A DNA stretch of 64,000 nucleotides from Acidimicrobiaceae bacterium (GTDB lineage: Bacteria > Actinomycetota > Acidimicrobiia > Acidimicrobiales > RAAP-2), in NCBI GenBank assembly GCA_003132165.1, contig PKWW01000067.1:62001-126000 (forward strand), read 5' to 3'. The notes under the pieces were generated by a model. The model was not told the DNA's origin. It ran no database searches and saw only the letters and a list, made by a program, of their open reading frames with translations. A program made the translations under genes and the position numbers. Of this stretch, positions 38,636 to 56,481 are shown in pieces (positions within the stretch are counted from its first letter, which is position 1; each line of letters starts with the position of its first letter).

Positions 38636-38712
38636 TGGTGCCCCCGGCAGGAGTCGAACCCGCAGCCTGACGGGTAGAAACCGTCTGCTCTATCCAGTTG
38701 AGCTACAGGGGC
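38636..38712 (-). tRNA. tRNA-Arg (TCT)
   Basis: Acceptor GCCCCTG (38712-38706) pairs with CGGGGGC including one G-T pair; the anticodon loop TTTCTAC gives anticodon TCT at 38678-38676; T arm GGGTTCGACTCC; encoded CCA at 38638-38636. Divergent from tRNA-His, 74 bases away. Confidence 0.94.
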
Positions 38713-38747
38713 GCACTTCCATCGTAGTGAACGAAGTCGTCGCTCTC

Positions 38748-38776
38748 TTGGAACGACTTGCTCGTTGTGCCATACT
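38748..38776 (+). promoter_or_regulatory. Promoter of tRNA-His
   Basis: TTGGAA at 38748-38753 and CATACT at 38771-38776 with a 17-base spacer, ending 10 bases before the mature tRNA 5' end. Geometry is that of a housekeeping sigma promoter; assigned by eye. Confidence 0.6.
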
Positions 38777-38786
38777 TGAAACGCTT

Positions 38787-38864
38787 GGTGGGCGTAGCTC
38801 AGTTGGTTAGAGCGCCAGGTTGTGGTCCTGGAGGTCGCGGGTTCGATCCCCGTCGCTCACCCCA
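38787..38864 (+). tRNA. tRNA-His (GTG)
   Basis: Acceptor GTGGGCG (38788-38794) pairs with CGCTCAC (38854-38860) with one G-T pair. The extra G at 38787 faces discriminator C at 38861, the hallmark of histidine tRNA. Anticodon loop TTGTGGT gives GTG. CCA is encoded at 38862-38864. Confidence 0.96.
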
Positions 38865-38982
38865 CGCAGCACCCCTCGCACTGTCCCGTGGCGGCGGTCG
38901 GCTTTGTATAGTCCGCACGACCGATTCTGCGTGACGTGTAGATTTCCACCTGTGGACGCACGCTCGTCCTAAAGGGGGACCA

Positions 38983-40407
38983 ATGTCAATTATTCGTGAT
39001 TCGTTCTACATCAACGGCGAATGGGTGAAGGCCACGTCGGGGGAAACCCTCGAAGTCACGTCGTCGGGTACCGGTGAGCTCTACGCGACCATTCCTGCGG
39101 GCACCGTCGAAGAGGCGAATCAGGCCGTCGAAGCCGCGGCCGCCGCCTTTACTGCGTGGGCCAACACGAGCCCCAAGGAGCGCGGGGAATTTCTCGTGCG
39201 GATCTCAGAGAAGCTCGCCGAGCGCAGCGACGAGATCGCGCTGACCATTGCCAACGAAGTGGGCATGCCATTGATGCTCGCCAAGGGCATCCAGGCCGGC
39301 CTGCCGACGATGACCTTCGCCGACAACGCCAAGCGGGCGGCCGAGTTCACGTGGGAGGAAGAAGTCGGGACCTCGACACTCGTACGCGAGCCCGTCGGCG
39401 TCGTTGCCGCGATCACGCCGTGGAACTACCCGCTGCACCAGATCGCCAACAAGGTCGCCGCGTCACTCGCGGCCGGTTGCACCGTCGTGTTGAAGCCGAG
39501 CGAAGTAGCTCCGGTCAACGCGTTCATCCTCGCCGAGATCATTCACGAGATCGGACTACCCAAGGGCGTCTTCAACTTGGTCACCGGACTCGGTCCCGTA
39601 GTCGGTGAAGCGATCGTCGCACACCCCAAGACTGACATGGTCTCGTTTACCGGTTCGACTCGTGCCGGCAAGCGCGTCATGCAGATTGCGGCCGAGATGG
39701 TCAAGCGCGTCTCGCTCGAACTGGGTGGCAAGTCCGCCAACATCATCCTCGAGGATGCCGATCTCGCCAAGGCCGTTGGGGACGGCGTCTTCAAGTGCTA
39801 CCTCAACTCGGGCCAGACCTGTTCGGCGCTTACCCGTATGGTGGTCCCACGTTCACGTCTCGCTGAAGTCGAGGACCTCGCGGTCGCGGCGGCTTCTGGC
39901 CTGCAGCCCGGCGACCCGATCACCGGCGCCAGCCTGCTCGGTCCGTTGGTCAGTGCCACGCAGCAACAGCGCGTACGCGACTACATCAACAAGGGGATCG
40001 ACGAGGGGGCTCGGATCATCTGCGGCGGTACGGCGGCGCCGGAGGGCCTAGAGCAGGGCTACTACATCCAGCCCACGATCTTCTCTGACGTCACTAATGA
40101 CATGACCATCGCCCAAGAGGAGATCTTCGGGCCAGTCTTGTCAATCATCCCCTACGACACCGAAGATGAGGCGATTGCCATCGCCAACGACTCCGCCTAC
40201 GGACTCGCCGGCGGCGTTTGGGCGGGGACCGACGAGAAGGCCTTTGAAGTCGCCCGAAAGATTCGCACCGGCCAGGTCGAGATCAACGGCGGTGCGTTCA
40301 ATATCCTTGCTCCGTTCGGTGGTTACAAGCAGTCTGGTATCGGCCGCGAACTCGGCCAGTACGGCTTCGAGGAATTCCTCGAAGTGAAGGCCATCCAGCA
40401 CAACTAG
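38983..40407 (+). CDS. Aldehyde dehydrogenase family protein
   Basis: NAD(P)-dependent aldehyde dehydrogenase, 474 residues, ATG at 38983 behind AAAGGGGGA. Motifs: [12 protein letters not shown] (about 142-153), [11 protein letters not shown], general base E246 in [11 protein letters not shown], nucleophile C280 in [22 protein letters not shown] and [15 protein letters not shown]. It belongs to the broad-specificity betaine/aldehyde group. It is monocistronic between tRNA-His and tRNA-Lys, so no pathway can be inferred from neighbours. Confidence 0.93.
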
Positions 40408-40438
40408 TTGCCAAGAGCTCGGCGCGTGACGGTATAGA
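40408..40438 (+). promoter_or_regulatory. Candidate promoter of tRNA-Lys
   Basis: TATAGA at 40433-40438 is a good -10 box nine bases before the tRNA 5' end; TTGCCA at 40408-40413 is the best -35 candidate but the spacer is long (19 bases). The -10 box lies in the loop of the inverted repeat 40421-40451. Confidence 0.5.
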
Positions 40439-40451
40439 CTCGTCACGCGCC
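40421..40451. repeat. Perfect inverted repeat overlapping the tRNA-Lys 5' end
   Basis: Eleven-base arms at 40421-40431 and 40441-40451 are exact reverse complements around a nine-base loop. The right arm includes the first five bases of the tRNA acceptor stem. It could act as a terminator-like hairpin for the preceding aldehyde dehydrogenase mRNA or be part of an integration site. Confidence 0.7.
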
Positions 40452-40522
40452 GGTAGCTCAATTGGCAGAGCATTTGACTCTTAATCAACAGGTTCCGGGT
40501 TCAAGTCCCGGCCGGCGCACCA
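40447..40522 (+). tRNA. tRNA-Lys (CTT), presumptive island insertion site
   Basis: Acceptor GCGCCGG (40447-40453) pairs fully with CCGGCGC (40512-40518). The anticodon loop CTCTTAA gives CTT; the T arm has GGGTTCAAGTCCC; CCA is encoded at 40520-40522. One outer pair of the anticodon stem is mismatched. The gene is intact, and its last 45 bases are repeated 11 kb downstream. Confidence 0.94.
40478..40522 (+). repeat. Left direct repeat (att-like), 3' part of tRNA-Lys
   Basis: Forty-five bases from the anticodon loop to the encoded CCA match 51482-51526 with a single difference, in the acceptor stem. This is the standard signature of an element integrated at a tRNA 3' end: the tRNA is restored at one junction and a tRNA fragment marks the other. 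Confidence 0.85.
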
Positions 40523-40525
40523 AGC

Positions 40526-40893: not shown

Positions 40894-41553
40894 CTAACCA
40901 CCGAGAGTGACGTCTTGCTCTTGATACCACGCCAGTGCATCGTTGAACTGCTCAATTGAAAAGTCGGGCCACAGCTCGTCGACCACGTAAAAGTCGGCGT
41001 AGATCGACTGGATGGGTAAGAAGCCACTCAGTCGCCGCCCGCCGCCCCAGCGCACGATGAGATCGATCCTCGAGATATCGGCGGACGCGATGCCGTCGGC
41101 GACGTTGTCGCGCTTACTCGCGTCGCCGTTCTTGAGCGAGTGGTTAAGGTCCCAGCTCCAGCCGTAGTTGACGAGGAAGTTGACTTTGATGCGACCCTCA
41201 CCGAATCGGGTTCGTTTCGTGTAACGCAAAAGTTCCTTGGGAAAGAGCGTCGACTCAGTGTTGCCCACCACGAGCAGATCCGCGTCCCTTTTCTCCAACT
41301 CGGCCACGGCTTTCACGCAGGCGTCGCGAAAGGCTTCGATCTGAGCAGCGGGACGTTTCGTATTGTCAACTGTGAAGCCGTAGAAGGTGATCTCAGGAAT
41401 ACCTAGAGCCAGACACTCGTTGTACAACTCCAGACCCGGCTGCAGTCCGAAGTGATAGCCATCCTGTTTTTCGAAGCCTTGACCTTGAGCCCAACGTCGA
41501 TTGCCGTCGGGGATGATGCCCACGTGCTGAGGGAGTCGCTTGGCGTTAGCCAT
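40894..41553 (-). CDS. Divergent cis-prenyl (polyprenyl diphosphate) synthase
   Basis: Member of the UppS family, 219 residues from ATG 41553 behind GAGGAC. The catalytic Asp region IIPDGNRRWA is intact (D16), as are ITFYGFTVDN and NFLVNYGW. The normally invariant R-x-x-GE-x-R-x-SNF block reads RWGGGRRLSGF (168-178), so the Glu that helps bind Mg-diphosphate is G172 and the Asn is G177. The later Glu of AELYF is Asp (D187). It is slightly shorter than housekeeping UppS, lies in the tRNA-flanked island, and is probably a paralogue making a different chain length or substrate. Confidence 0.8.
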   Translation of the reverse strand: MANAKRLPQHVGIIPDGNRRWAQGQGFEKQDGYHFGLQPGLELYNECLALGIPEITFYGFTVDNTKRPAAQIEAFRDACVKAVAELEKRDADLLVVGNTESTLFPKELLRYTKRTRFGEGRIKVNFLVNYGWSWDLNHSLKNGDASKRDNVADGIASADISRIDLIVRWGGGRRLSGFLPIQSIYADFYVVDELWPDFSIEQFNDALAWYQEQDVTLGG

Positions 41554-41902
41554 TGCCGGCGTCCTCAACCACAGTGTCTCTCATAATGAAGTGATTCTAC
41601 TTCACGGCATTGCTCAAGATTCTTTGATTCGAGGTCACTCACTGCCTAACTTCGAGTGTCTCTTGCAAGACCTCGCGGCCACCTTCTTCGCGCCCCACCG
41701 AAGCATTCCTGAATCAACGAATGTCTCTACTACACCTTGCTCAAAGATGGTGAAACAAGTTGGACATCGTGCACGCCGTAAAATGCCTCACTAATCCTCT
41801 TTACGAGTTGCGTCCGCGGGTGTTACGCTCAGGGTTAGGACGTCAAGACCTCGCATCCGTTGTTCCCTGCCAGTTGGTCAGGGAGGCAGAAGAAGGTGTG
41901 AT
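41554..41902. other. Intergenic region, divergent promoters
   Basis: No convincing gene; the open frames here have no RBS or recognisable composition. It separates two divergent genes and so should contain both promoters. It includes the inverted repeat at 41589-41606. Confidence 0.5.
41589..41606. promoter_or_regulatory. Inverted repeat upstream of the prenyl synthase, possible operator
   Basis: Arms TGAAGT and ACTTCA around six bases, 36 bases upstream of the prenyl synthase start. The dyad suits a dimeric regulator; too short to exclude chance. Confidence 0.25.
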
Positions 41903-42564: not shown

Positions 42565-42738
42565 GTGACCAACAAGGACAAAGCCAACAATATGGGCCAA
42601 GTAGCCAAGGGCAAGGTCAAAGAAGTTGCCGGGAAGACCACTGGCGACAAGAAACTCGAAGCCGGCGGCAAGGCGGACCAGATGAAGGGAAACGTCAAGC
42701 AAGCCGGTGAGAAAGTCAAGGATGCATTCAAGAAGTAG
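42565..42738 (+). CDS. CsbD-family stress protein
   Basis: A 57-residue hydrophilic protein, GTG start at 42565 with GGAG upstream. The composition is rich in Lys, Gly, Ala and Asp, with GQVAKGKVKEVAGKTTGD in the middle and repeated KADQMKGNVKQAGEKVKDAF, the CsbD pattern. CsbD was named as a sigma-B-controlled general stress protein in Bacillus; its molecular role is unknown. The 48 bases read upstream in frame lack family similarity. A perfect hairpin follows its stop. Confidence 0.85.
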   Translation: MTNKDKANNMGQVAKGKVKEVAGKTTGDKKLEAGGKADQMKGNVKQAGEKVKDAFKK

Positions 42739-42774
42739 CACGGATCGGTACGCATCGAGCGCCGAGCAATTCTC

Positions 42775-42814
42775 GTTGACGGGGACCAAGGATAGCCCCT
42801 TGGTCCCCGTCAAC
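42775..42814 (+). terminator. Perfect 17-bp hairpin after csbD-like gene
   Basis: Arms 42775-42791 and 42798-42814 are exact complements around a six-base loop, 36 bases after the CsbD stop. No T-tract follows, so termination strength is uncertain, but the stem is too long for chance. Confidence 0.65.
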
Positions 42815-42874
42815 GGCAACGAACCAACGAGTGTCGATGCGTGCACCAGCGCAGCAAGGTCGTCAGATTGGACG

Positions 42875-43864
42875 GTGTTGCCCTGGGCTCGGGGGCCGCT
42901 CAGCGCTGCGGTGATTTCTGCCCTGCAGCGCCCGCCGGGGACCTTCGGTCCCGCTCCCCCTATCTCAGGAATTGACGCATTGAGCGATGACGATTTTGCG
43001 TTGGCCCTGTATCTTTGTTACGAAGTCCACTACCGCACCGTGACCGACGCAGGCTGGGAGTGGGATCCAGGCCTCCTCACGTTTCGCGCCGAATTAGAGC
43101 GCGCGTTCGTGGAACGGCTCCGTGACGAAGTCGTCGACCCTAGATCTCGGTTTCCCTACGAAGTGATTTCGGCGCTCGACGAATTGATTCGAGCGGCGCC
43201 TGGTCCGTCACTGTCTCGGCATCTCCTCGAGTCGGGGACCTTGGAACAACTCCGCGAGTTTTGCATGCATCGATCGGCATATCAATTGAAGGAGGCCGAC
43301 CCCCATACGTTTGGCATTCCGAGGTTGACTGGCGAAGCTAAGGCCGCCATGGTGGAGATCCAATACGAAGAATACGGATCCGGCGTCGCCTCAGCCATGC
43401 ACTCCCATCTCTTTGGTGAGACAATGGACGCGTTGGGTCTCGACTCTTCCTACGGTTCGTACGTGGAAGTCTTGCCCGGCGTCACGCTCGCCACCGTCAA
43501 TTTAGTTTCAATGTTCGCCCTCCATCGACGGTGGCGCGCCGCCCTCGTTGGGCACCTCGCGGTATTCGAAATGACTTCGGTCGAACCAATGGCGCGTTAC
43601 AGTAGTGCGCTCGCCCGTTTCGGTATTGGTCCAGAGGGTCGGCGCTTCTACGACGTGCACGTAACTGCAGACGAGCGCCACGCGGCAATCGCCCGCGACC
43701 GGATGGTCGCCGGATTGATTCGCGCCGAACCGGAATTGAGTGCGGACTTGTTGTTTGGAGCTGCGGCCGTCTTGATGCTCGAACAACGATTCGCGTCGCA
43801 CCTCCTCGACGCGTGGGCAAATAGCCGTTCGTCTCTTGTCTCACGGGATCAACGTGCACGCTGA
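42875..43864 (+). CDS. Iron-containing redox enzyme family protein
   Basis: Helical protein of the haem-oxygenase-like diiron fold. The metal-binding pattern is visible: ALYLCYEVHYR, MHRSAYQLKEADPHTF, then EIQYEEYGSG and MHSHLFGETM, later GHLAVFEMTS and FYDVHVTADERHA, supplying spaced Glu, His and Asp ligands. Members act on varied substrates as oxygenases or oxidases, and the substrate here is not predictable. The frame is open to 42707, but that part contains the hairpin 42775-42814 and no family similarity. I start at GTG 42875 (329 residues), uncertain. Confidence 0.72.
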   Translation: MLPWARGPLSAAVISALQRPPGTFGPAPPISGIDALSDDDFALALYLCYEVHYRTVTDAGWEWDPGLLTFRAELERAFVERLRDEVVDPRSRFPYEVISALDELIRAAPGPSLSRHLLESGTLEQLREFCMHRSAYQLKEADPHTFGIPRLTGEAKAAMVEIQYEEYGSGVASAMHSHLFGETMDALGLDSSYGSYVEVLPGVTLATVNLVSMFALHRRWRAALVGHLAVFEMTSVEPMARYSSALARFGIGPEGRRFYDVHVTADERHAAIARDRMVAGLIRAEPELSADLLFGAAAVLMLEQRFASHLLDAWANSRSSLVSRDQRAR

Positions 43865-44082
43865 TCAGGCCGACTCTTAATGCTGATGACCACGATGTCA
43901 TCGCTGTGCGCAACAGAGGGAATCTCTTTCTAACAACTTTGCGTTACGTCGGCATTGCACCGATCATTAGAGAGGTTCGAACAGGAAAGTTTGATAGAAC
44001 TTCGTCAGATGCACCCGCGATTCGGTGGACCGTCGTGCGGTGGGCCAATCGTCCACGCTGAAGTCTGTTCTCGTCAGTTCCT

Positions 44083-44943
44083 TCAGGAAGTCACGGTCTC
44101 TCCGGCAATTTTCGCTGGAGCGCCGAATCGCAGTTGGTAACCGCCAAAGGCGATGGAGCAAAGCGCGAACCACGCCCACCCCAGCGCGAGCCCGCCGAGC
44201 ACGTCGGTGAGCCAGTGCACACCGAGCATCACCCGACAACAGGCAATGCCGGTGGCGAGACCGACGGAGAGACCAGCAAGAAGCGCCCGTACCTTTAGGG
44301 AACGCCTTCGACCGATCACCAGAGCAAATGCCGCCAAGCACGCGGCGGCGGCTACGGCGTGGCCGGACGGAAAAGACGAACCGGAGAATCCGGTCAATTG
44401 ATAAAAGTCGGGCCGACCCCGACGTACAATCGATTTGATGACGTTGGCGATAAGGAACTGTCCGCCCACCACGAGGGTGAGGAACGTGATTACTGCGACC
44501 GATCGCTGGCGTATCGTTTCGATGATTGCCACGATGACAGCGATGGGGACGATGACGACGGCGCCTCCGAGCTGAGTATAGATCCGTAAGAACCGAGTCG
44601 AGAGAGCCGTCGCGTGGTGCGCTCCGAACAAACTGGCGCTGCGATCAAGTCGCGCGAATCCAGTGTTGGTGTGGATCATAACGAGCACGATGGCCACCGA
44701 GGCGGCTCCAGCGACGAACAGAATGATGACGGCGCTCAGGAGCAGTCCAGTGGCGGAGTTGGGATCAAGCCGTGTTTGGGTGAAGGCCACCAGGCGCGGG
44801 TGTCGGCGAGCCTCGACCTTGACCTGTTCAACATTTAAGTGAGGGGCGGTCGTAGCGGCTTGGGGCCATCGGTACGCAATCAATCCGGCGGCGAGACCGG
44901 GGATGACGACCGTGAGCAGAGTGATCGAAAGAATCAGCATCAC
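44083..44943 (-). CDS. PAP2-family phosphatase
   Basis: Integral membrane phosphatase of 286 residues with about six helices. All three PAP2 motifs are present: IKSIVRRGRP (about 175-184), SSFPSGH (about 195-201) and CRVMLGVHWLTD (about 244-255), where the usual first Ser is Cys. The last gene of a five-gene operon, five bases after cardiolipin synthase. Substrate could be phosphatidate, undecaprenyl diphosphate or phosphatidylglycerophosphate. The catalytic site faces the outside in such proteins. Confidence 0.87.
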   Translation of the reverse strand: MMLILSITLLTVVIPGLAAGLIAYRWPQAATTAPHLNVEQVKVEARRHPRLVAFTQTRLDPNSATGLLLSAVIILFVAGAASVAIVLVMIHTNTGFARLDRSASLFGAHHATALSTRFLRIYTQLGGAVVIVPIAVIVAIIETIRQRSVAVITFLTLVVGGQFLIANVIKSIVRRGRPDFYQLTGFSGSSFPSGHAVAAAACLAAFALVIGRRRSLKVRALLAGLSVGLATGIACCRVMLGVHWLTDVLGGLALGWAWFALCSIAFGGYQLRFGAPAKIAGETVTS

Positions 44944-44948
44944 GTCAC

Positions 44949-46145
44949 CTACGAGACGCCGCGCAGTGGTGCGACGAGTTGTTCTTTGACGCGTTGGAAC
45001 AGTGAACGCCTCTTCCAGCGACGCGGATCGATTCGGACGCTTCGCTCGAGATCACTTTCGAAGTGGCGATCGAGGGTACGCACGACCGATGGATCAAAGA
45101 TCACCATGTCGATCTCTTCATCGAAGTTGAGGGATCGATTGTTGAAATTCGCCGATCCCACATTGGCGACGTGGCCGTCGACCGTCATGGTCTTGGCGTG
45201 CATCATCGAGGGCTGAAAGTTCCACAATTCGACACCGGACTCAATCAGGTCCTCGTAGTCCACTTCGGCCGCGAGTTGCACGAAACGTTTGTCAGCGAAT
45301 GGCCCGGGGAGAAGGATCTGTACGTGCACCCCGCGGGTTGCCGCGTCACAGAGACGCTTGGTGAGATCGTCGTCGGGAACGAAGTAGGCGGTCGTGACGC
45401 GCAACTGTCGTTGAGCTAACTGCAAGAGCGTCCGAAAAACACTGGCCATATCACTTCCGCCCGTGGCCGACGCGCCGCGCACGCACTGGATCACACTCTG
45501 GCCGGGCGCGTACTGAACTGGAAAACGATCGAATTCGTCGTCAAAGATGACGCGGTCGGTCTCGGACCAATTGTCGAGAAACGCTGCGCGCAGTCCGTCG
45601 ACGGCCGGTCCTTCGACTTTGAAATGGGTGTCGCGCCATTCGCGCTCGTTTCGAGCATCGCCTCTCCAGAGGTCTGAAATACCCACACCACCGGTAAAGG
45701 CGACTGACTCGTCAACCACGAGAATTTTTCGATGAGTTCGGTGGTTGACTTCTCCGAGGCGCATCCGACTCAGAGGACGAAACCATCGCAACTGGACTCC
45801 GGCCTCAATCATGGCGCCGACAAGATGCCTTTCGATCGGTCGCGAGCCCCATGCGTCCAAGAGCACCCGAACACGGACGCCGGCCTTGGCCCGACCACAA
45901 AGAGCCTCGGCTACCTCGGTGCCAATCTGGCCCTTCCAGTAGACAAAGGTGAGAAAGTCGATCGTGTGCTCTGCGCCACGAATGGCGCCGAGCATCGCCG
46001 GAAAGATCTCGCACCCGTTGTGCAAAGTCGTAACGCGATTACCCTCGGTCGCCGGGATTCCCACGACTCCCTCGAGCGTGCGCCTCGATCGGCTGACCTG
46101 TTCGTCCGCAGCCAACTCGGAGCGAAGAGTGTCGTCACTGGTCAT
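44949..46145 (-). CDS. Cardiolipin synthase-like phospholipase D
   Basis: PLD-superfamily enzyme, 398 residues, with two HKD motifs: HRKILVVD (about 134-141) and HAKTMTVD (about 314-321), each followed by the FTGG/GSANFNNRS element. These catalyse transphosphatidylation between two phosphatidylglycerols to cardiolipin, or related head-group exchange. The membrane helices normally at the N-terminus of ClsA are absent, which recalls ClsB/ClsC-type enzymes. Overlaps the YihY gene by 11 bases. Confidence 0.87.
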   Translation of the reverse strand: MTSDDTLRSELAADEQVSRSRRTLEGVVGIPATEGNRVTTLHNGCEIFPAMLGAIRGAEHTIDFLTFVYWKGQIGTEVAEALCGRAKAGVRVRVLLDAWGSRPIERHLVGAMIEAGVQLRWFRPLSRMRLGEVNHRTHRKILVVDESVAFTGGVGISDLWRGDARNEREWRDTHFKVEGPAVDGLRAAFLDNWSETDRVIFDDEFDRFPVQYAPGQSVIQCVRGASATGGSDMASVFRTLLQLAQRQLRVTTAYFVPDDDLTKRLCDAATRGVHVQILLPGPFADKRFVQLAAEVDYEDLIESGVELWNFQPSMMHAKTMTVDGHVANVGSANFNNRSLNFDEEIDMVIFDPSVVRTLDRHFESDLERSVRIDPRRWKRRSLFQRVKEQLVAPLRGVS

Positions 46146-47112
46146 GCGCTACTACCCTTGCTCCAGACGGATCACTCGCGGGATCTGACTCAGTGACCTT
46201 CTGCGCGTCCTGCGGCGCCGGTTCGCCGGTTCTGAGGGCTTCAAGTTGGGCCGCCACGGCGGCGCCGTAAAACAAGGAAATGCTCGACAACAAACTCCAC
46301 ACGAGCAACGCAATGACGCCCGCCAGGGGGCCGTACGTCGCGCCAAAAGAAGAACTTGACCCGTAGAACAGACCTAAGCCGATCGTGGACAACCCCCACA
46401 AGAACACGGAGATCCCGGAGCCGAACGCGAGCCACGACAATCTGGGCTGGCGGCGTCGCGGCGACCAACGGAACAACACGGTGACCGCAATCGCCGTCAA
46501 ACCTAAACCCAGGGGCCAGCGCGCCATTGACCACATCAATGTGAACGCGTGATTGTGGATGGAGAAAAATAGATCCCTGCCAAAGGCCAAGGACACGAAG
46601 GACGCCGCGACGAGCGTGCCGACACTCAGCGCGAAAATCAGCCCAAGTCCGTACTTTTTCAGCGTGGGGCGGTCCTGCTCGACTCCGTAGATGCGATTGA
46701 GCCCGCGTTCGAGTTGGCCCATCGCCGTGGTTCCTACCACGAGCGCGCCAATCACGCCAAAGAGAAGTGCGACGTAGTGATGTCCCGCGGCGACGCGGTG
46801 GGCCTGAGTCACGGCGGTGGTCAGTACGTTGCCGGCCGGTCCGGGAACGGTTCGGCGCACGGTGGCGTCGATCGTCGCGCTGACGCCGCCCTTGTGCAAC
46901 ACGCTCGCGAGTCCGACAATGCCAATCAATCCCTCGATGGCGACGAGCGAGATCATAAATGCCAAGGAACGAGCGTGACTGAAACCATCCGCTACGCGCA
47001 TCCGCTTAAAGGCGTCCTTCGCGAGGCGACCCCAACCGGAACGCTTGAGCACCGCCCACGCGTCGTCACCGGTCAGACCACGAGTCTCGGGAACGAGTGT
47101 GGCGCTACTCAT
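46135..47112 (-). CDS. YihY/BrkB-family inner membrane protein
   Basis: A 325-residue integral membrane protein with about six helices. Family features are FKRMRVADGFSHARSLAFMI near the N-terminus, GTTAMGQLERGLNRIYGVE in the centre and WGLSTIGLGLFYGSSSSFGATYGPLAGVIALLVW (split), ending in FYGAAVAAQLEA. YihY/BrkB proteins were once misnamed RNase BN; transport or lipid-related roles are suspected but not established. Its place between a diacylglycerol kinase and a cardiolipin synthase suggests a lipid-linked job here. It abuts the kinase gene without a gap. Confidence 0.88.
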   Translation of the reverse strand: MSSATLVPETRGLTGDDAWAVLKRSGWGRLAKDAFKRMRVADGFSHARSLAFMISLVAIEGLIGIVGLASVLHKGGVSATIDATVRRTVPGPAGNVLTTAVTQAHRVAAGHHYVALLFGVIGALVVGTTAMGQLERGLNRIYGVEQDRPTLKKYGLGLIFALSVGTLVAASFVSLAFGRDLFFSIHNHAFTLMWSMARWPLGLGLTAIAVTVLFRWSPRRRQPRLSWLAFGSGISVFLWGLSTIGLGLFYGSSSSFGATYGPLAGVIALLVWSLLSSISLFYGAAVAAQLEALRTGEPAPQDAQKVTESDPASDPSGARVVAHDQ

Positions 47113-47997
47113 TCATTCTCCCTTTTTGGGCACGCACACCGTGATCGCACCGGGTTCCACGCTCGCTCGAAACTTCTTCTTTGCCTTTCGGGCGCCCCCG
47201 TCTAGTTCGTACGTCGTGGGGCGATTGAGCTTGATCTCCACTTTGCGTCCTCGGCCCATTTGAGTAAGGGGTGAGTGTTTGGCGTCCTTGACCACCAGTC
47301 GACTGAGCACCCGCGTCCACTGCAGAATGTTGGCCGCCGTGACCACGCCAACCTCAAGCAGCCCGTCATCGGGTTGGGCATCAGGAAACGCAACGATGCC
47401 CGCCGCCAGCGTCCCCATCTGGCCGAGCAAGACGCACGTCGCGTTACCTTTGAACCAAGGTTTCCCGTCGATCTCGATACGGACCTTGCGACTCGTCATG
47501 TGCGTGGCGCGTACACCGGTCCACACGTAGGCCATTCGACCGAAATGACCCTTCAACTCACCGTCGGCGTCGCGCATCGTGATGGCGTCGAAGCCAACGC
47601 CCGCCATGACGGCGAAACGTTCGCCGTTCAAAACCCCGACGTCTAAACGGCGCCGGTCGCCTGAGAGACCAACATCGACGGCCGCGCTCAGATCTATCGG
47701 AACGTGCAAATTATTCGCTAGCAAATTGGCGGTACCCGCTGGCAAGATCGCCAGGTCCACGGCTTCTCCGGCCACGGCGTCGACGCAACGCTGGATCGTG
47801 CCGTCACCACCCCAAACGAAGAGCAAGTCCGCCCCCTCGGCCACGGCTTGACGAGCCCGTTCGGGTGCCAGACGGCTCTTGGATACCTCGTACCAGAGGG
47901 GATCGGGAAAACCCCTCTCGGCCAAGACCTGTCGCAACTCCTCGAGACCGCCGCCCAATGTCTTATTCTTGTGAGCTACAACGGCGACCGACGTCAC
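47113..47997 (-). CDS. Diacylglycerol kinase-family lipid kinase
   Basis: Soluble DagK/YegS-type lipid kinase of 294 residues. The nucleotide-binding signature is LFVWGGDGTIQRCVDAV (about 60-76), followed by LPAGTANLLANNL (about 88-100), and C-terminal LNRPTTYELDGG. It phosphorylates diacylglycerol or a related lipid using ATP. The start overlaps the stop of the PAP2 gene by ATGA. Pairing with PAP2 phosphatases gives opposite reactions in one operon. Confidence 0.88.
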   Translation of the reverse strand: MTSVAVVAHKNKTLGGGLEELRQVLAERGFPDPLWYEVSKSRLAPERARQAVAEGADLLFVWGGDGTIQRCVDAVAGEAVDLAILPAGTANLLANNLHVPIDLSAAVDVGLSGDRRRLDVGVLNGERFAVMAGVGFDAITMRDADGELKGHFGRMAYVWTGVRATHMTSRKVRIEIDGKPWFKGNATCVLLGQMGTLAAGIVAFPDAQPDDGLLEVGVVTAANILQWTRVLSRLVVKDAKHSPLTQMGRGRKVEIKLNRPTTYELDGGARKAKKKFRASVEPGAITVCVPKKGE

Positions 47998-48854
47998 TGC
48001 GACGCCTCGTCCAATTGGCAGTTGTCCGCGGCAGAGGATTGCTTCTCTGCACTATCAGATTTAGTGGAACGATTGACGCCGGCCACTCGAATGATGAAGA
48101 CGCCAGCGAAGAGAGATCCAATACCCAAGAGCAACCCTGCAAGGACGTCTGTCGGGTAGTGCTCTCCGCGGTAGACCCGAGACAAGCCAACGGACACCGC
48201 TAATAAAACAGCGATCGCCCACATCATGATCCCGAGCCACTGCCGCCTTGTCGCCACCGTCACAATCACCGCGATTCCTCCATAGAGAACGACGGTAGCG
48301 GCCGTGTGACCTGACGGGAAGCTGTACGTGGAGGGCGTACCCCCCAAATGACTCACGGCTGGACGAGGCCTTGCAACGATCTTGTTAGCCATTAGGAAGA
48401 CGGAGAGCTCAATGAGCAAACCGGCCACGAGTAGGAACGCGTGTCGCCCCCATCGTCGAAAGAGGAGGACGATAGTGACGACCGCGGCAACGCCGGCTAC
48501 TTCGAACGTATCGGCCATGTTGGTCACGTCGCCGGTGATCCGGTTCCAATCACCGGTGCGATGTCTGTCGAACCACTGACTGACGTGGTGGTCCCACACG
48601 CCTGTCGAACCGTGCTCGAGGACGTGGGTGATAAAGAGACCCAGAGCGACAATGAATGCTCCCATTGCGACGAATGAGGCAATTGTGGCGATCGCGATGG
48701 CAATGACGCCGTGCCCTCGAGCAACATTTTTGACCAGGCGGTGCGCCGGTCCCCCGGTCGACGGATTGAGAAGAGTCCGTCGGCTGTCCATACCATTGTC
48801 GTGCTTCGTGACAATGGAACCTGTGCCCTTCGCGTTCGCGTCGGTCATCGACAC
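47994..48854 (-). CDS. PAP2-family phosphatase, first gene of the lipid operon
   Basis: Membrane phosphatase of 286 residues: long polar N-terminus (about 1-45), then helices. The three motifs are KIVARPRP (about 153-160), SFPSGHTA (about 173-180) and SRVYRGEHYPTDV (about 219-231), all canonical. Together with the second PAP2 at 44083 it flanks the kinase, YihY and cardiolipin synthase genes. The polar tail ends KSDSAEKQSS. Overlap ATGA with the kinase gene shows coupled translation. Specificity is not predictable. Confidence 0.87.
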   Translation of the reverse strand: MSMTDANAKGTGSIVTKHDNGMDSRRTLLNPSTGGPAHRLVKNVARGHGVIAIAIATIASFVAMGAFIVALGLFITHVLEHGSTGVWDHHVSQWFDRHRTGDWNRITGDVTNMADTFEVAGVAAVVTIVLLFRRWGRHAFLLVAGLLIELSVFLMANKIVARPRPAVSHLGGTPSTYSFPSGHTAATVVLYGGIAVIVTVATRRQWLGIMMWAIAVLLAVSVGLSRVYRGEHYPTDVLAGLLLGIGSLFAGVFIIRVAGVNRSTKSDSAEKQSSAADNCQLDEASQ

Positions 48855-49810
48855 TGGCCAAGTTCGAAGTGTGTATAACGTCTGGTCAACAGTCGACGGG
48901 CGTGAACAGGGGTCACTCTTTCAGGGAACATCACGTGACGGGCCCGCGTACGAAGTACGTCAAGCACAATCCGACTGACGACGAGGGCGCACCGTGCCGA
49001 CCTGATCAAACCTTCTGAGACGGTGTCGAAATTCGCGATACGACAACAAGTTGCCAACGTGCAGTCCTCGAGATTTTTCGAAGTAACTGCGCTGACTTCA
49101 AAGTCTATTTCCACTATGCCCCTCGTCGGTAATTCTCCTCTGTCGAATTGGCCATCGGCCAAGATAGAAGGAAACGAGGTCCAAGCGCCTTCAAGAAACA
49201 CTCTAGTGCTCACGCAACTCCTTCAGGGGTGCCCCCAGATGCCCCAGCACTTCATCAACCGACTGTCGTTCGGTACACCGGTGAGATTGATGGCCGAGCC
49301 CGATGAGATTACCCGGGGCGTCCTGCGGCTATTCGACGAAGGCCTAATGAGAACCCGCACGCCGAATGGATAGAAAGAGATGCGCAATGAAGAGGCGATA
49401 TTGAGCTTCAGAACAGTCCCTCAATTTAGGCCTCATATTTCCGCAACACCACGAAACAATACCGACACAGGACAACACGATTCCTTGAAACAAACGACAA
49501 GCGCGACGAGACCGACACACCGCAACCGTTTGGCAGTTCCTTCTAATCCCAAGGCGCCGGGGTCGAGATCCAGGCGCCCACAAACTCCCTACTCAAACCC
49601 TCTTTAATATCTTCCGATTGGCCCGATCAAGCCTATCGCCGAGCGATCCATCGGGACTCGGATCATTTGTAATCCCAGAACGATGCGTGGTCAACAATTC
49701 AGTTGACTTATCTCCGAGGATCCTTCCGCATGGCATGCGGTCGCTATCCGTGTCAAACAGGCATAGCGTTAGATCCTCTTGGACAGTTTCATCGGAGAAT
49801 GTGTAAATCA
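48855..49810. other. Gene-poor, AT-richer stretch in the island
   Basis: No supported gene in 956 bases. Open frames of 116-122 codons on both strands (49023-49373 plus; 48845-49213 minus) have no RBS or family features. The base composition is clearly less GC-rich than the operon to the left. It should hold the promoters of the lipid operon and of the SGNH gene. Possibly decayed genes. Confidence 0.5.
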
Positions 49811-51941: not shown

Positions 51942-52223
51942 TCAAGCGATAGGACCTTCGCCACCCAGGAACTTATCCAATTGGGTAGCGAACTCGGCGA
52001 CATTCCGCCGCAACCATTCGACCAGCATCGCAGCATGCTCCATTTCGTCGTTCATATTGTGAACAATGACTGCTTTGAGCTGAGCGTCGTCGCAGTCGTC
52101 AGCCCGTTGTCGATACCAGTCGATTGCCTGCAACTCCTCCATCAATGAGACAATCGCTTGGTGCGTGGCAATCGTCTGATCCGTCAGACGCTCTCGCGGC
52201 GCGTGTAGGTCTTCGCTGGACAT
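51942..52223 (-). CDS. Encapsulated-ferritin-like protein (EncFtn), no targeting tail
   Basis: A 93-residue two-helix protein closely resembling encapsulated ferritins: TIATHQAIVSLMEELQAIDWY (split), then HNMNDEMEHAAMLVEWLRR. The ferroxidase ligands known for the Rhodospirillum rubrum protein align with E30, E60 and H63. EncFtn forms a ring of dimers that oxidises Fe(II) inside an encapsulin shell. The sequence ends at GGEGPIA immediately after the domain, with no C-terminal encapsulin-targeting peptide, and no encapsulin gene is in the window. Start: ATG 52223 (a GTG six bases upstream is possible). Confidence 0.85.
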   Translation of the reverse strand: MSSEDLHAPRERLTDQTIATHQAIVSLMEELQAIDWYRQRADDCDDAQLKAVIVHNMNDEMEHAAMLVEWLRRNVAEFATQLDKFLGGEGPIA

Positions 52224-52319
52224 GGTCACCTGCTTCTAACTCTGAAGGCAAATTGCTTCCGTCGGAATCATACGGCTCCGCCGAGCGACAGGCAAGAATT
52301 ACCCGTGCCGCGTACAGAC

Positions 52320-53062
52320 TCATAACGAGGTTCCCCAGCCAAAGTAGACGCTGGGTGAAGCAGACTTCGCTACTTGGAGCAATGCTAATTCGTACTTGAC
52401 GGGACTGATGTTGCCAATCGTGGTGCAGCGCCGCTTGGTGTTGTACCAGTTGATATACCGCTCGATGCCGGCGCGCAGCTCATCCATGTTGGCAAAGACG
52501 TGACGGTAGAAGTACTCGTGTTTGAAGATCGACCAGAAACTTTCTGCGCTGGCGTGCTCGTAACACGTTCGCGTGCTGCCCAGGGAGCGAACGATCTTGA
52601 GGTGCACACAACGCTCCTTGATCTCGCGGTCACTGAACTGACTGCCACGGTCGGTGTGAAGTTTGGTGTCCGACACGAGGCCGCGACGCGTGCGCACGGA
52701 CTGACCTAACGCCTCAAGCACGATCTCGGTGCGCATGTGGTCTTGGACCGAGTAGCCGAGTACTCGACTCGAGCACTCATCGCGAATGGCACACAGGAGG
52801 CGCCGCCGCTCCCAATTGTCATATACGTGATATCCGAGCTCCACAACGCATCCAGCGTCTCTTGCTTGAAGTGACGCCGCGCCAGGTCGGGTGGGTAGGT
52901 GGCGCTCGGGTCCGGCACCATGGTCACCTTGAACAGCCGGGGACTCACGCCAACGATCCCCAGGGACCTCATGTGGGCGGCCACCGTGTTGTGACTGACC
53001 ATGTCGCCAGTCTCGTGCAGTTCGCAACTTGGAATGACTTCGATAGTGAGCCGTATTGGCAC
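52320..53062 (-). pseudogene. IS3-family transposase (OrfB) remnant, frameshifted
   Basis: Two overlapping frames encode consecutive pieces of one DDE transposase. The upstream piece (to about 52815) has SHNTVAAHMRSLGIVGVSP and LDALWSSDITYM with the first catalytic Asp. The downstream piece (from about 52825 to 52320) continues with LLCAIRDECSSRVLGYSV, the second Asp in LHTDRGSQFSD, the Glu in ASAESFWSIFKHEYFY and the end RRCTTIGNISPVKYE. Joining them requires one frameshift near 52810-52825. The N-terminal part of OrfB and all of OrfA are missing, so the element is dead. Terminal repeats could not be identified. Confidence 0.8.
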
Positions 53063-55266: not shown

Positions 55267-55464
55267 AACTGCCTCCGAATCCTTACGGTAGCAACGCCAC
55301 CTATTGGTAAGTATGCAGTCACGTCTTCCAAACGATGAGTGACTTAAGTCACAATGATTCAAAGCCTATTGAGCACTTCGGCCCTACCGGATTCGACGCC
55401 GCTCGACCAGAGTGGAGGCAGCGAAATCGGCGCGAACTTAGAGCCAACAATCAGGGAGTTCGAA

Positions 55465-56481
55465 ATGCCTTCTTCAACGATGTCAGCCTGGGCGGTGAGC
55501 GTCCCGGGGCCAATCGACTCGGGTCCGCTCGTGCGTGTCGAGCGCCCGATTCCAGATCCTGGTCCGGGCCAGATTCGTCTTCGCGTAATGGCGTGCGGGG
55601 TCTGTCGCACCGATCTGCACCTCGCCGAGGGCGACCTGCCCGCACGGCGTCCCTTCGTAATCCCTGGTCACGAGGTCGTCGGTGTCGTCGATGAACTCGG
55701 CGACGGCTCGCAACGTTTCGTCAAGGGCGACCGGGTGGGGGCGGCGTGGCTCGCGCGAACCTGTGGCGAATGTCGCTACTGCCTCAGTGGTCGAGAGAAT
55801 CTCTGCACCTCGCCCACCTTCACTGGCTGGGATATAGACGGCGGTTACGCCCAGTACGTCGTAGTCGACGAGGACTACGCCTACGCGATCCCCCCTTCCT
55901 TCGACGACCTGCACGCCGCTCCCCTCTTGTGCGCCGGCATCATTGGCTACCGTGCGTTGCTGCGCTCGCAGTTGCCCCCGGGGGGCCGGCTGGGTATTTA
56001 CGGATTCGGAGGGTCCGCGCACCTCACCGCTCAGATCGCGCTGGCCAAGGGTGCGCGCGTGCACGTCATGACCCGCTCCCAGGAAGCTCGCGAGCTGGCC
56101 CTCTCGTTGGGCGCCAGCAGCGTCGGAGACGCGAGCGACCCTCCACCCGAGCCCCTCGATTCCGCCATTCTCTTCGCTCCCGTCGGCACGCTCGTCCCGC
56201 CGGCACTCGCCGCGCTCGACCGCGGGGGTACGCTCGCCGTCGCCGGCATCTACCTGAGCGACATTCCGGCACTGAGCTACGAGCGCCACCTCTTCCAAGA
56301 GCGCAACCTCTGCAGCGTGACGGCCAATACACGCGATGACGGTCGGGACTTCTTGGCGCTCGCGGCCCAAATTGGTCTACAGGTATCAGTGGACCCCTAC
56401 CCCTGGGATCAAGCCGATCGAGCCCTGCGCGATCTATGCCACGACCACGTCAACGGCGCCGCGGTCTTGATCAATCCCTGA
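55465..56481 (+). CDS. Zinc-dependent alcohol dehydrogenase
   Basis: Medium-chain dehydrogenase/reductase, 338 residues from ATG 55465 behind AGGGAG. Catalytic zinc ligands: Cys in CGVCRTDLH and GHEVVGVV for the His/Glu pair. Structural zinc cysteines lie in [15 protein letters not shown]. The cofactor-binding turn is [11 protein letters not shown] (about 202-212). It reads as an NAD(P)-dependent primary alcohol dehydrogenase. Divergent from the acetaldehyde dehydrogenase with a shared 198-base promoter region, so they are probably co-regulated. Confidence 0.92.

Follow-up and report, generated by a model that had tools for sequence, protein, structure and literature searches.

What is a YihY/BrkB-family membrane protein doing among enzymes of lipid-phosphate metabolism? 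Such proteins are common in bacteria and, to our knowledge, mostly without an assigned function, and one of them is encoded in the middle of a compact gene set in a 64,000-nucleotide stretch of DNA from a soil-type Acidimicrobiaceae bacterium (GenBank assembly GCA_003132165.1, 2.3 Mb in 71 contigs; contig PKWW01000067.1, positions 62,001 to 126,000), which at its full length we call the window. Five open reading frames (ORFs) fill the minus strand at 44083-48854 in the transcription order PAP2, DAGK_cat+YegS_C, BrkB (YihY), PLDc_2, and PAP2, all with Pfam scores above the gathering cut-offs and all at the coordinates of an earlier description made from the sequence alone (the original prediction), which had proposed a five-gene lipid-phosphate operon that could travel as a unit. 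On the evidence of gene order, PAP2, the diacylglycerol kinase (DAGK), and YihY are an old, recurrent gene set of Actinomycetota. Probably, although with considerable room for doubt, the operon serves phosphatidate/diacylglycerol turnover, with a YihY of a clade marked by a VPET motif as the partner of the PAP2/kinase pair in the membrane. The features are, in the order of transcription:

48849..49215, minus strand: operon leader, with a -10-like element and the conserved dyad TCTTGGCCGATGGCCAA
47994..48848, minus strand: head PAP2-family phosphatase, 284 amino acids; ORF open from GTG 48854, ATG 48848 preferred
47113..47997, minus strand: YegS/DgkB-type soluble lipid kinase (DAGK), 294 amino acids; its GTG start overlaps the head PAP2 stop
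46135..47112, minus strand: YihY/BrkB-family membrane protein of the VPET-motif subfamily, 325 amino acids
44949..46145, minus strand: PLD-superfamily cardiolipin-synthase-like enzyme, 398 amino acids
44083..44940, minus strand: tail PAP2-family phosphatase, 285 amino acids; ORF open from GTG 44943, ATG 44940 preferred

Sequence, Pfam, and motif checks agree that the five ORFs are real, intact, and abutting. The DAGK stop is followed by the YihY ATG without a gap (47112/47113) and the YihY and PLD genes overlap by 11 bases (46135-46145), both as originally described; the four-base overlap of head PAP2 and DAGK at 47994-47997 also stands, except that the sequence there reads GTGA and not ATGA, and the five-base gap at 44944-44948 holds from GTG 44943 but widens to eight bases from ATG 44940, the probable start of the tail PAP2. 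For the head PAP2 the probable start is ATG 48848, which is conserved among relatives together with a GGAGG-like site. The genes would be co-transcribed, and their dN/dS ratios of nonsynonymous to synonymous change (0.07-0.28 against three relatives) indicate purifying selection. An ORF at 48845-49213 was considered as a sixth operon gene and is treated as leader DNA because of its low G+C at third codon positions and frame-breaking indels in relatives.

Is this arrangement peculiar to the window? Protein searches covered 60 relatives, including 37 genomes of the genus, and 11 of the 37 (the window's own genome counted) carry close relatives of the operon kinase; a YihY of the same kind adjoins a kinase copy in all 11, with one genome (G018) holding a second kinase copy alone besides the YihY-linked one. 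A kinase profile search of GTDB species genomes gave 80 loci; these and the other loci examined show the contiguous PAP2-DAGK-YihY-cardiolipin synthase-PAP2 order in ten other species within the window's uncultured Acidimicrobiia group (L041, L044, L046, L047, L048, L049, L050, L054, L055, and L058; the YihY frame of L050 is broken in the assembly). Since relatives keep the order contiguous, the outcome that was to count against the original prediction, genes scattered in relatives and joined only here, is excluded. Three relatives (L043, L051, and L053) keep the order without the cardiolipin-synthase-like gene, and a few others have DAGK-YihY but lack the PAP2s; DAGK-to-YihY spacing within the group is a few bases. 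By these layouts the core is PAP2-DAGK-YihY, and the cardiolipin-synthase-like gene, earlier counted among the five members, is optional. Named records with the operon are Acidimicrobiaceae or Acidimicrobiales metagenome-assembled genomes (MAGs), and the isolate names of many refer to palsa, bog, or fen.

The core extends well beyond this group. Searching from YihY through 396 Actinomycetota genomes (E 1e-45), we examined twenty matched loci with their flanks, calling flank genes with profile hidden Markov models built here and with tblastn maps. A DAGK gene lies next to the VPET-type YihY, with a PAP2 beside them, in 11 of the 20 loci, from seven families, none in the window's order; it is directly upstream of YihY in ten of these, and in L165 a short PAP2-like ORF stands between. 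PAP2 and DAGK are even fused in L156, L157, and L158, in a single ORF ending just before YihY. In the surroundings of exactly 20 control loci of ordinary YihY paralogues from the window's order, surveyed with the same profiles over mostly 7-9 kb a side, we found DAGK, PAP2, and PLD genes in none, the stretch being shorter in a few ended by the contig. The difference (11/20 vs. 0/20) corresponds to a one-sided Fisher probability of ~7e-5, calculated by hand and only a guide, because the sets differ in taxonomic range and the loci are related and not fully independent. From the kinase side, 61 loci outside the group have within 5 kb a PAP2 in 25 cases, a PLD protein in 8, and YihY in only 6, so that the YihY-DAGK association is strong without being obligatory. 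The link of YihY to phospholipids is thus stronger than the original prediction could know, because the core recurs across the phylum, but it concerns one VPET clade, and linkage by itself does not explain YihY/BrkB proteins in general, since all 20 ordinary paralogue loci are without such neighbors. A literature search found no description of a YihY-PAP2-DAGK operon; the apparent novelty lies in the repeated association of PAP2 and DAGK with a distinct clade of YihY, the enzymes themselves being ordinary.

As a separate observation, DUF1206 membrane proteins adjoin this kinase subfamily in loci without YihY (L061:2389-3183, L114:6790-7614, and L068:9188-9979), as if a DUF1206 protein could stand in for YihY or vice versa.

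The operon YihY matches Pfam Virul_fac_BrkB (PF03631) over residues 42-291 with 120.3 bits (gathering cut-off 33.7; E 1.5e-34) and falls below the cut-off of the NCBIfam YihY subfamily TIGR00765 (56.9 vs. 73.15 bits), which places it by profile score in a divergent clade of PF03631 and not with canonical YihY. An alignment of operon-type YihYs shows a common N-terminal motif, MSTAxxVPETxxLxGDDA, which is absent from all 8 control paralogues inspected, and in a tree these YihYs, with or without a linked DAGK, group in a single clade separate from ordinary paralogues (support 0.95); a misframed row of the first alignment (L029) was omitted from later profiles. An AlphaFold2 model (pLDDT, the predicted local distance difference test score, 87) is almost wholly helical, with the N-terminal motif ordered. 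A sequence search of solved structures with this YihY gave no match. VPET-type YihYs also occur on a few large actinobacterial replicons, and in a plasmid search the full operon was absent from the two examined.

The enzymes flanking YihY carry the motifs expected of them. Both phosphatases match Pfam PAP2, at 65 and 73 bits: the head enzyme (E 6.7e-18) has intact PSGH and SRVYRGEHYPTD motifs, thus PSGH and SRxxxxxHxxxD, with a first PAP2 motif one residue shorter (KIVARPRP), and the tail enzyme (E 2.4e-20; KSIVRRGRP, PSGH, and CRVMLGVHWLTD) has the complete signature K(x6)RP, PSGH, SR(x5)H(x3)D, with CR replacing SR. The kinase shows the domains of the YegS/DgkB type (DAGK_cat 2.2e-17, YegS_C 3.3e-17) and an intact GGDGT, of which GGDG is invariant in 12 relatives. 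The PLD protein (PLDc_2 144 bits, 2.9e-42) has two HxKxxxxD motifs, HRKILVVD at residue 138 and HAKTMTVD at residue 316, and is probably a cardiolipin synthase; we name it cardiolipin-synthase-like because its score against NCBIfam TIGR04265 (5.4e-77, 259.8 bits) is under the equivalog cut-off of 290, and its match to the ClsB model (8.4e-60) is likewise under the curated cut-off. Of the earlier description as a cardiolipin synthase without membrane anchor, the second half agrees with our inspection by eye, which saw no hydrophobic N-terminal anchor, and the enzyme name is probable. Gene content, intact motifs, and kept order bear out an operon-like lipid-phosphate set.

How might these proteins work together? 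PgpB-type PAP2 enzymes dephosphorylate lipid phosphates at the outer face of the membrane, and YegS/DgkB kinases are soluble and active at the inner face. In the turnover module that we propose, the membrane PAP2s, with active sites expected toward the outer leaflet, would convert phosphatidate-type lipids to diacylglycerol; the cytosolic kinase would re-phosphorylate diacylglycerol reaching the inner leaflet, giving phosphatidate back to phospholipid synthesis; and the PLD-type enzyme, where present, would condense phosphatidylglycerol to cardiolipin. With the phosphatase outside and the kinase inside, the lipid would therefore have to cross the membrane, and the co-encoded polytopic YihY is the natural candidate, most likely as a lipid carrier between leaflets or as a tether of PAP2 and kinase. 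That the VPET-clade YihY works together with the PAP2-DAGK pair we consider likely; that it is a dedicated translocase or scramblase passing diacylglycerol or phosphatidate between outer-leaflet PAP2 and cytosolic kinase is a tentative and doubtful proposal. If true, the latter would give a molecular function to a YihY clade outside Gram-negative lipopolysaccharide (LPS) biology. The finding also bears on the route of phosphatase-made diacylglycerol to a cytosolic kinase, and a clade with two constant enzyme partners phylum-wide, sometimes fused, points experiments in tractable hosts such as Streptomyces to a concrete class of substrates.

Several observations weigh against this turnover module. 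No clear DAGK neighbor is seen at 9 of the 20 VPET-YihY loci and no YihY within 5 kb of DAGK at 55 of the 61 loci outside the group (some stretches ended by the contig), so that neither gene strictly needs the other, and the linkage controls come from a single order while the loci compared with them come from the whole phylum. A Foldseek search with the YihY model gave no significant match, and its best VIA structure match was yeast Pns1 of the choline-transporter-like family (Z 7.0, rmsd [root-mean-square deviation] 6.3 over 237 residues), which we rejected as a structural relative, its score being no higher than unrelated helical models reach. The substrates and transport activity of all operon proteins are predictions from sequence. 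Finally, both PAP2s score nearer to the NCBIfam undecaprenyl-diphosphatase SepP than to PgpB, although at 50.9 and 37.9 bits both are far under the SepP equivalog cut-off of 250.

The resemblance to SepP favors the main rival, recycling of polyprenyl phosphates, in which the PAP2s would act on undecaprenyl diphosphate and the kinase on polyprenol, and YihY would bring undecaprenyl phosphate back through the membrane for cell-wall synthesis. An accessory cis-prenyltransferase gene, patchy within the genus and only 28% identical to a second, core-type copy in the same genome, stands at 40894-41568, 2.5 kb from the window's operon; in G017 the distance is ~5 kb. However, G009, G014, and G015 have the prenyltransferase but lack the operon, and G003 and G007 have the operon but lack the prenyltransferase, an inconsistent co-occurrence because of which we dropped a functional tie between them. 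The solved structures related to the kinase (DgkB 2qv7, BmrU, and YegS) carry the names of diacylglycerol or YegS lipid kinases, and polyprenyl recycling has no place for the PLD enzyme; we regard it as unlikely.

The wider neighborhood raises another alternative, a storage-lipid or membrane-stress cluster whose genes would be co-regulated for stress or triacylglycerol supply, with no direct lipid role for YihY. A loose cluster of this kind is conceivable, given that the kinase is repeatedly accompanied by DUF1206, Nramp, and PLD genes, in varying combinations with other envelope or metal genes, and mycobacterial phosphatidate phosphatases (PAPs) are reported to supply triacylglycerol synthesis (PMC8225852). 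It sits poorly with the position of YihY, which follows DAGK without an intervening gene at most of the linked loci in seven distant families and at a spacing of a few bases within the group, and we think it quite improbable.

Comparison with known systems brings the turnover module closest to mycobacterial enzymes. The closest characterized enzyme is MSMEG_0633 (PAPalpha) of Mycobacterium smegmatis, a two-domain PAP2-DAGK protein that raised diacylglycerol threefold in an E. coli dgk mutant; phosphatidate phosphatase activity of PAPalpha and of MSMEG_0634 (PAPbeta) was inferred from a threefold-fourfold diacylglycerol rise in E. coli, and the accessible part of the report makes no mention of kinase activity for MSMEG_0633 (PMC8225852). 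As in that pair, PAP2 and DAGK_cat make up a functional unit, next to which stands another PAP2; unlike in MSMEG_0633, the window has PAP2 and DAGK in two overlapping genes (the fused state being that of L156-L158), and the set includes a PLD enzyme and a YihY of the VPET clade. The window's PLD protein resembles E. coli ClsB-type cardiolipin synthases in superfamily, in its two HKD motifs, and in having no hydrophobic anchor, but its scores under the curated ClsB and TIGR04265 cut-offs leave its activity a predicted one. E. coli YhjD, a YihY/BrkB protein according to NCBI product names, offers a parallel. It reportedly binds LPS and co-purifies with LptB (PMC3219608), and the original statement that YihY/BrkB has no proven function overlooks this member of the family. 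Both are inner-membrane proteins of the family, YhjD being tied to lipid (LPS) handling, whereas the operon YihY has the N-terminal VPET motif and PAP2-DAGK partners, and this actinobacterium is not expected to have LPS. The mcr-pap2 and mcr-dgkA colistin-resistance cassettes, for which diacylglycerol recycling is the proposed reason for carrying PAP2 or kinase (PMC7559476), similarly join a PAP2 or diacylglycerol kinase gene to a lipid-modifying gene; unlike them, the window's set has no phosphoethanolamine transferase, and its kinase is of the soluble YegS type and theirs of the integral DgkA type.

Upstream of the operon, the dyad TCTTGGCCGATGGCCAA lies within 49141-49164, ~300 bases before the first gene on the minus strand, and follows a -10-like block that reads TAGAGTG in the window and TATAGTG in relatives. 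Dyad and block, in the part of the leader farthest from the genes (49141-49215), are nearly invariant in 11 species, the other leader parts being poorly conserved. Two small stems are predicted in the leader by RNAalifold, an Rfam scan matched tRNA only and nothing in the leader, a promoter scan of the leader found no consensus sigma-70 promoter, and a search of the own genome for a regulon (one-mismatch copies of the dyad) found a single site, the one at the operon. The dyad may be an operator or part of a structured leader.

Where does the operon sit, and does it move? G+C falls from ~0.62 to 0.55 around 40-44 kb, directly after a tRNA-Lys gene (40447-40522), with a second fall around 48-53 kb. 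For several relatives, homology is limited to ~44061-49212, that is, the operon and its leader, among non-homologous flanks, and in G023 the window flanks 38638-40523 and 55410-56481 stand in the same order ~14 kb apart with other genes between them and the operon absent. The location on a variable island is thereby upheld. Identity to G017 is ~93% in the 3' part (from ~47.1 kb down) and ~80% in the 5' part, a sharp change inside the operon that shows against L021 and L033/L034; synonymous divergence is 0.18-0.22 for YihY, the cardiolipin-synthase-like gene, and tail PAP2 and 0.56-0.59 for DAGK and head PAP2. These differences between the 3' and 5' parts suggest recombination inside the operon. 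The operon occupies a variable tRNA-Lys site and appears to be exchanged, not always as one block: of the proposed travel as a unit, exchange stands, but four-gene and two-gene versions and the internal recombination speak against a fixed block, and no mobility gene dedicated to the operon was found. Such a hotspot, with different cargo in G023, might also have assembled neighbors of no common function, yet the same order in ten further species, the phylum-wide core and fusions, and the empty controls leave this with a very small probability; chance is excluded in practice by gene order conserved even in distant relatives.

Among neighboring genes, a fragment with an rve integrase core domain at 52320-53027 is likely a transposase remnant in the island. 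A second, longer PLD-family protein (~535 amino acids; L021:8300-9910, L041:6879-8450, and L114:7653-9200) lies upstream of the head PAP2 in most relatives and is missing in the window; it is found near the kinase in distant actinobacteria too. Nramp-type metal transporters stand just downstream of the operon in L053:8861-10138, L056:4470-5717, L077:7421-8683, and L044:14657-15823. A haem-oxygenase-like iron enzyme (PF14518) is encoded at 42707-43864 of the window, and three relatives likewise have one no more than ~10 kb from the operon kinase (L044:3-581, L052:4881-5423, and L057:99-1235); moreover, an encapsulated-ferritin-like protein (EncFtn) near the kinase (window 51942-52229) is 79% identical to one in a fen MAG (L088:12040-12321).

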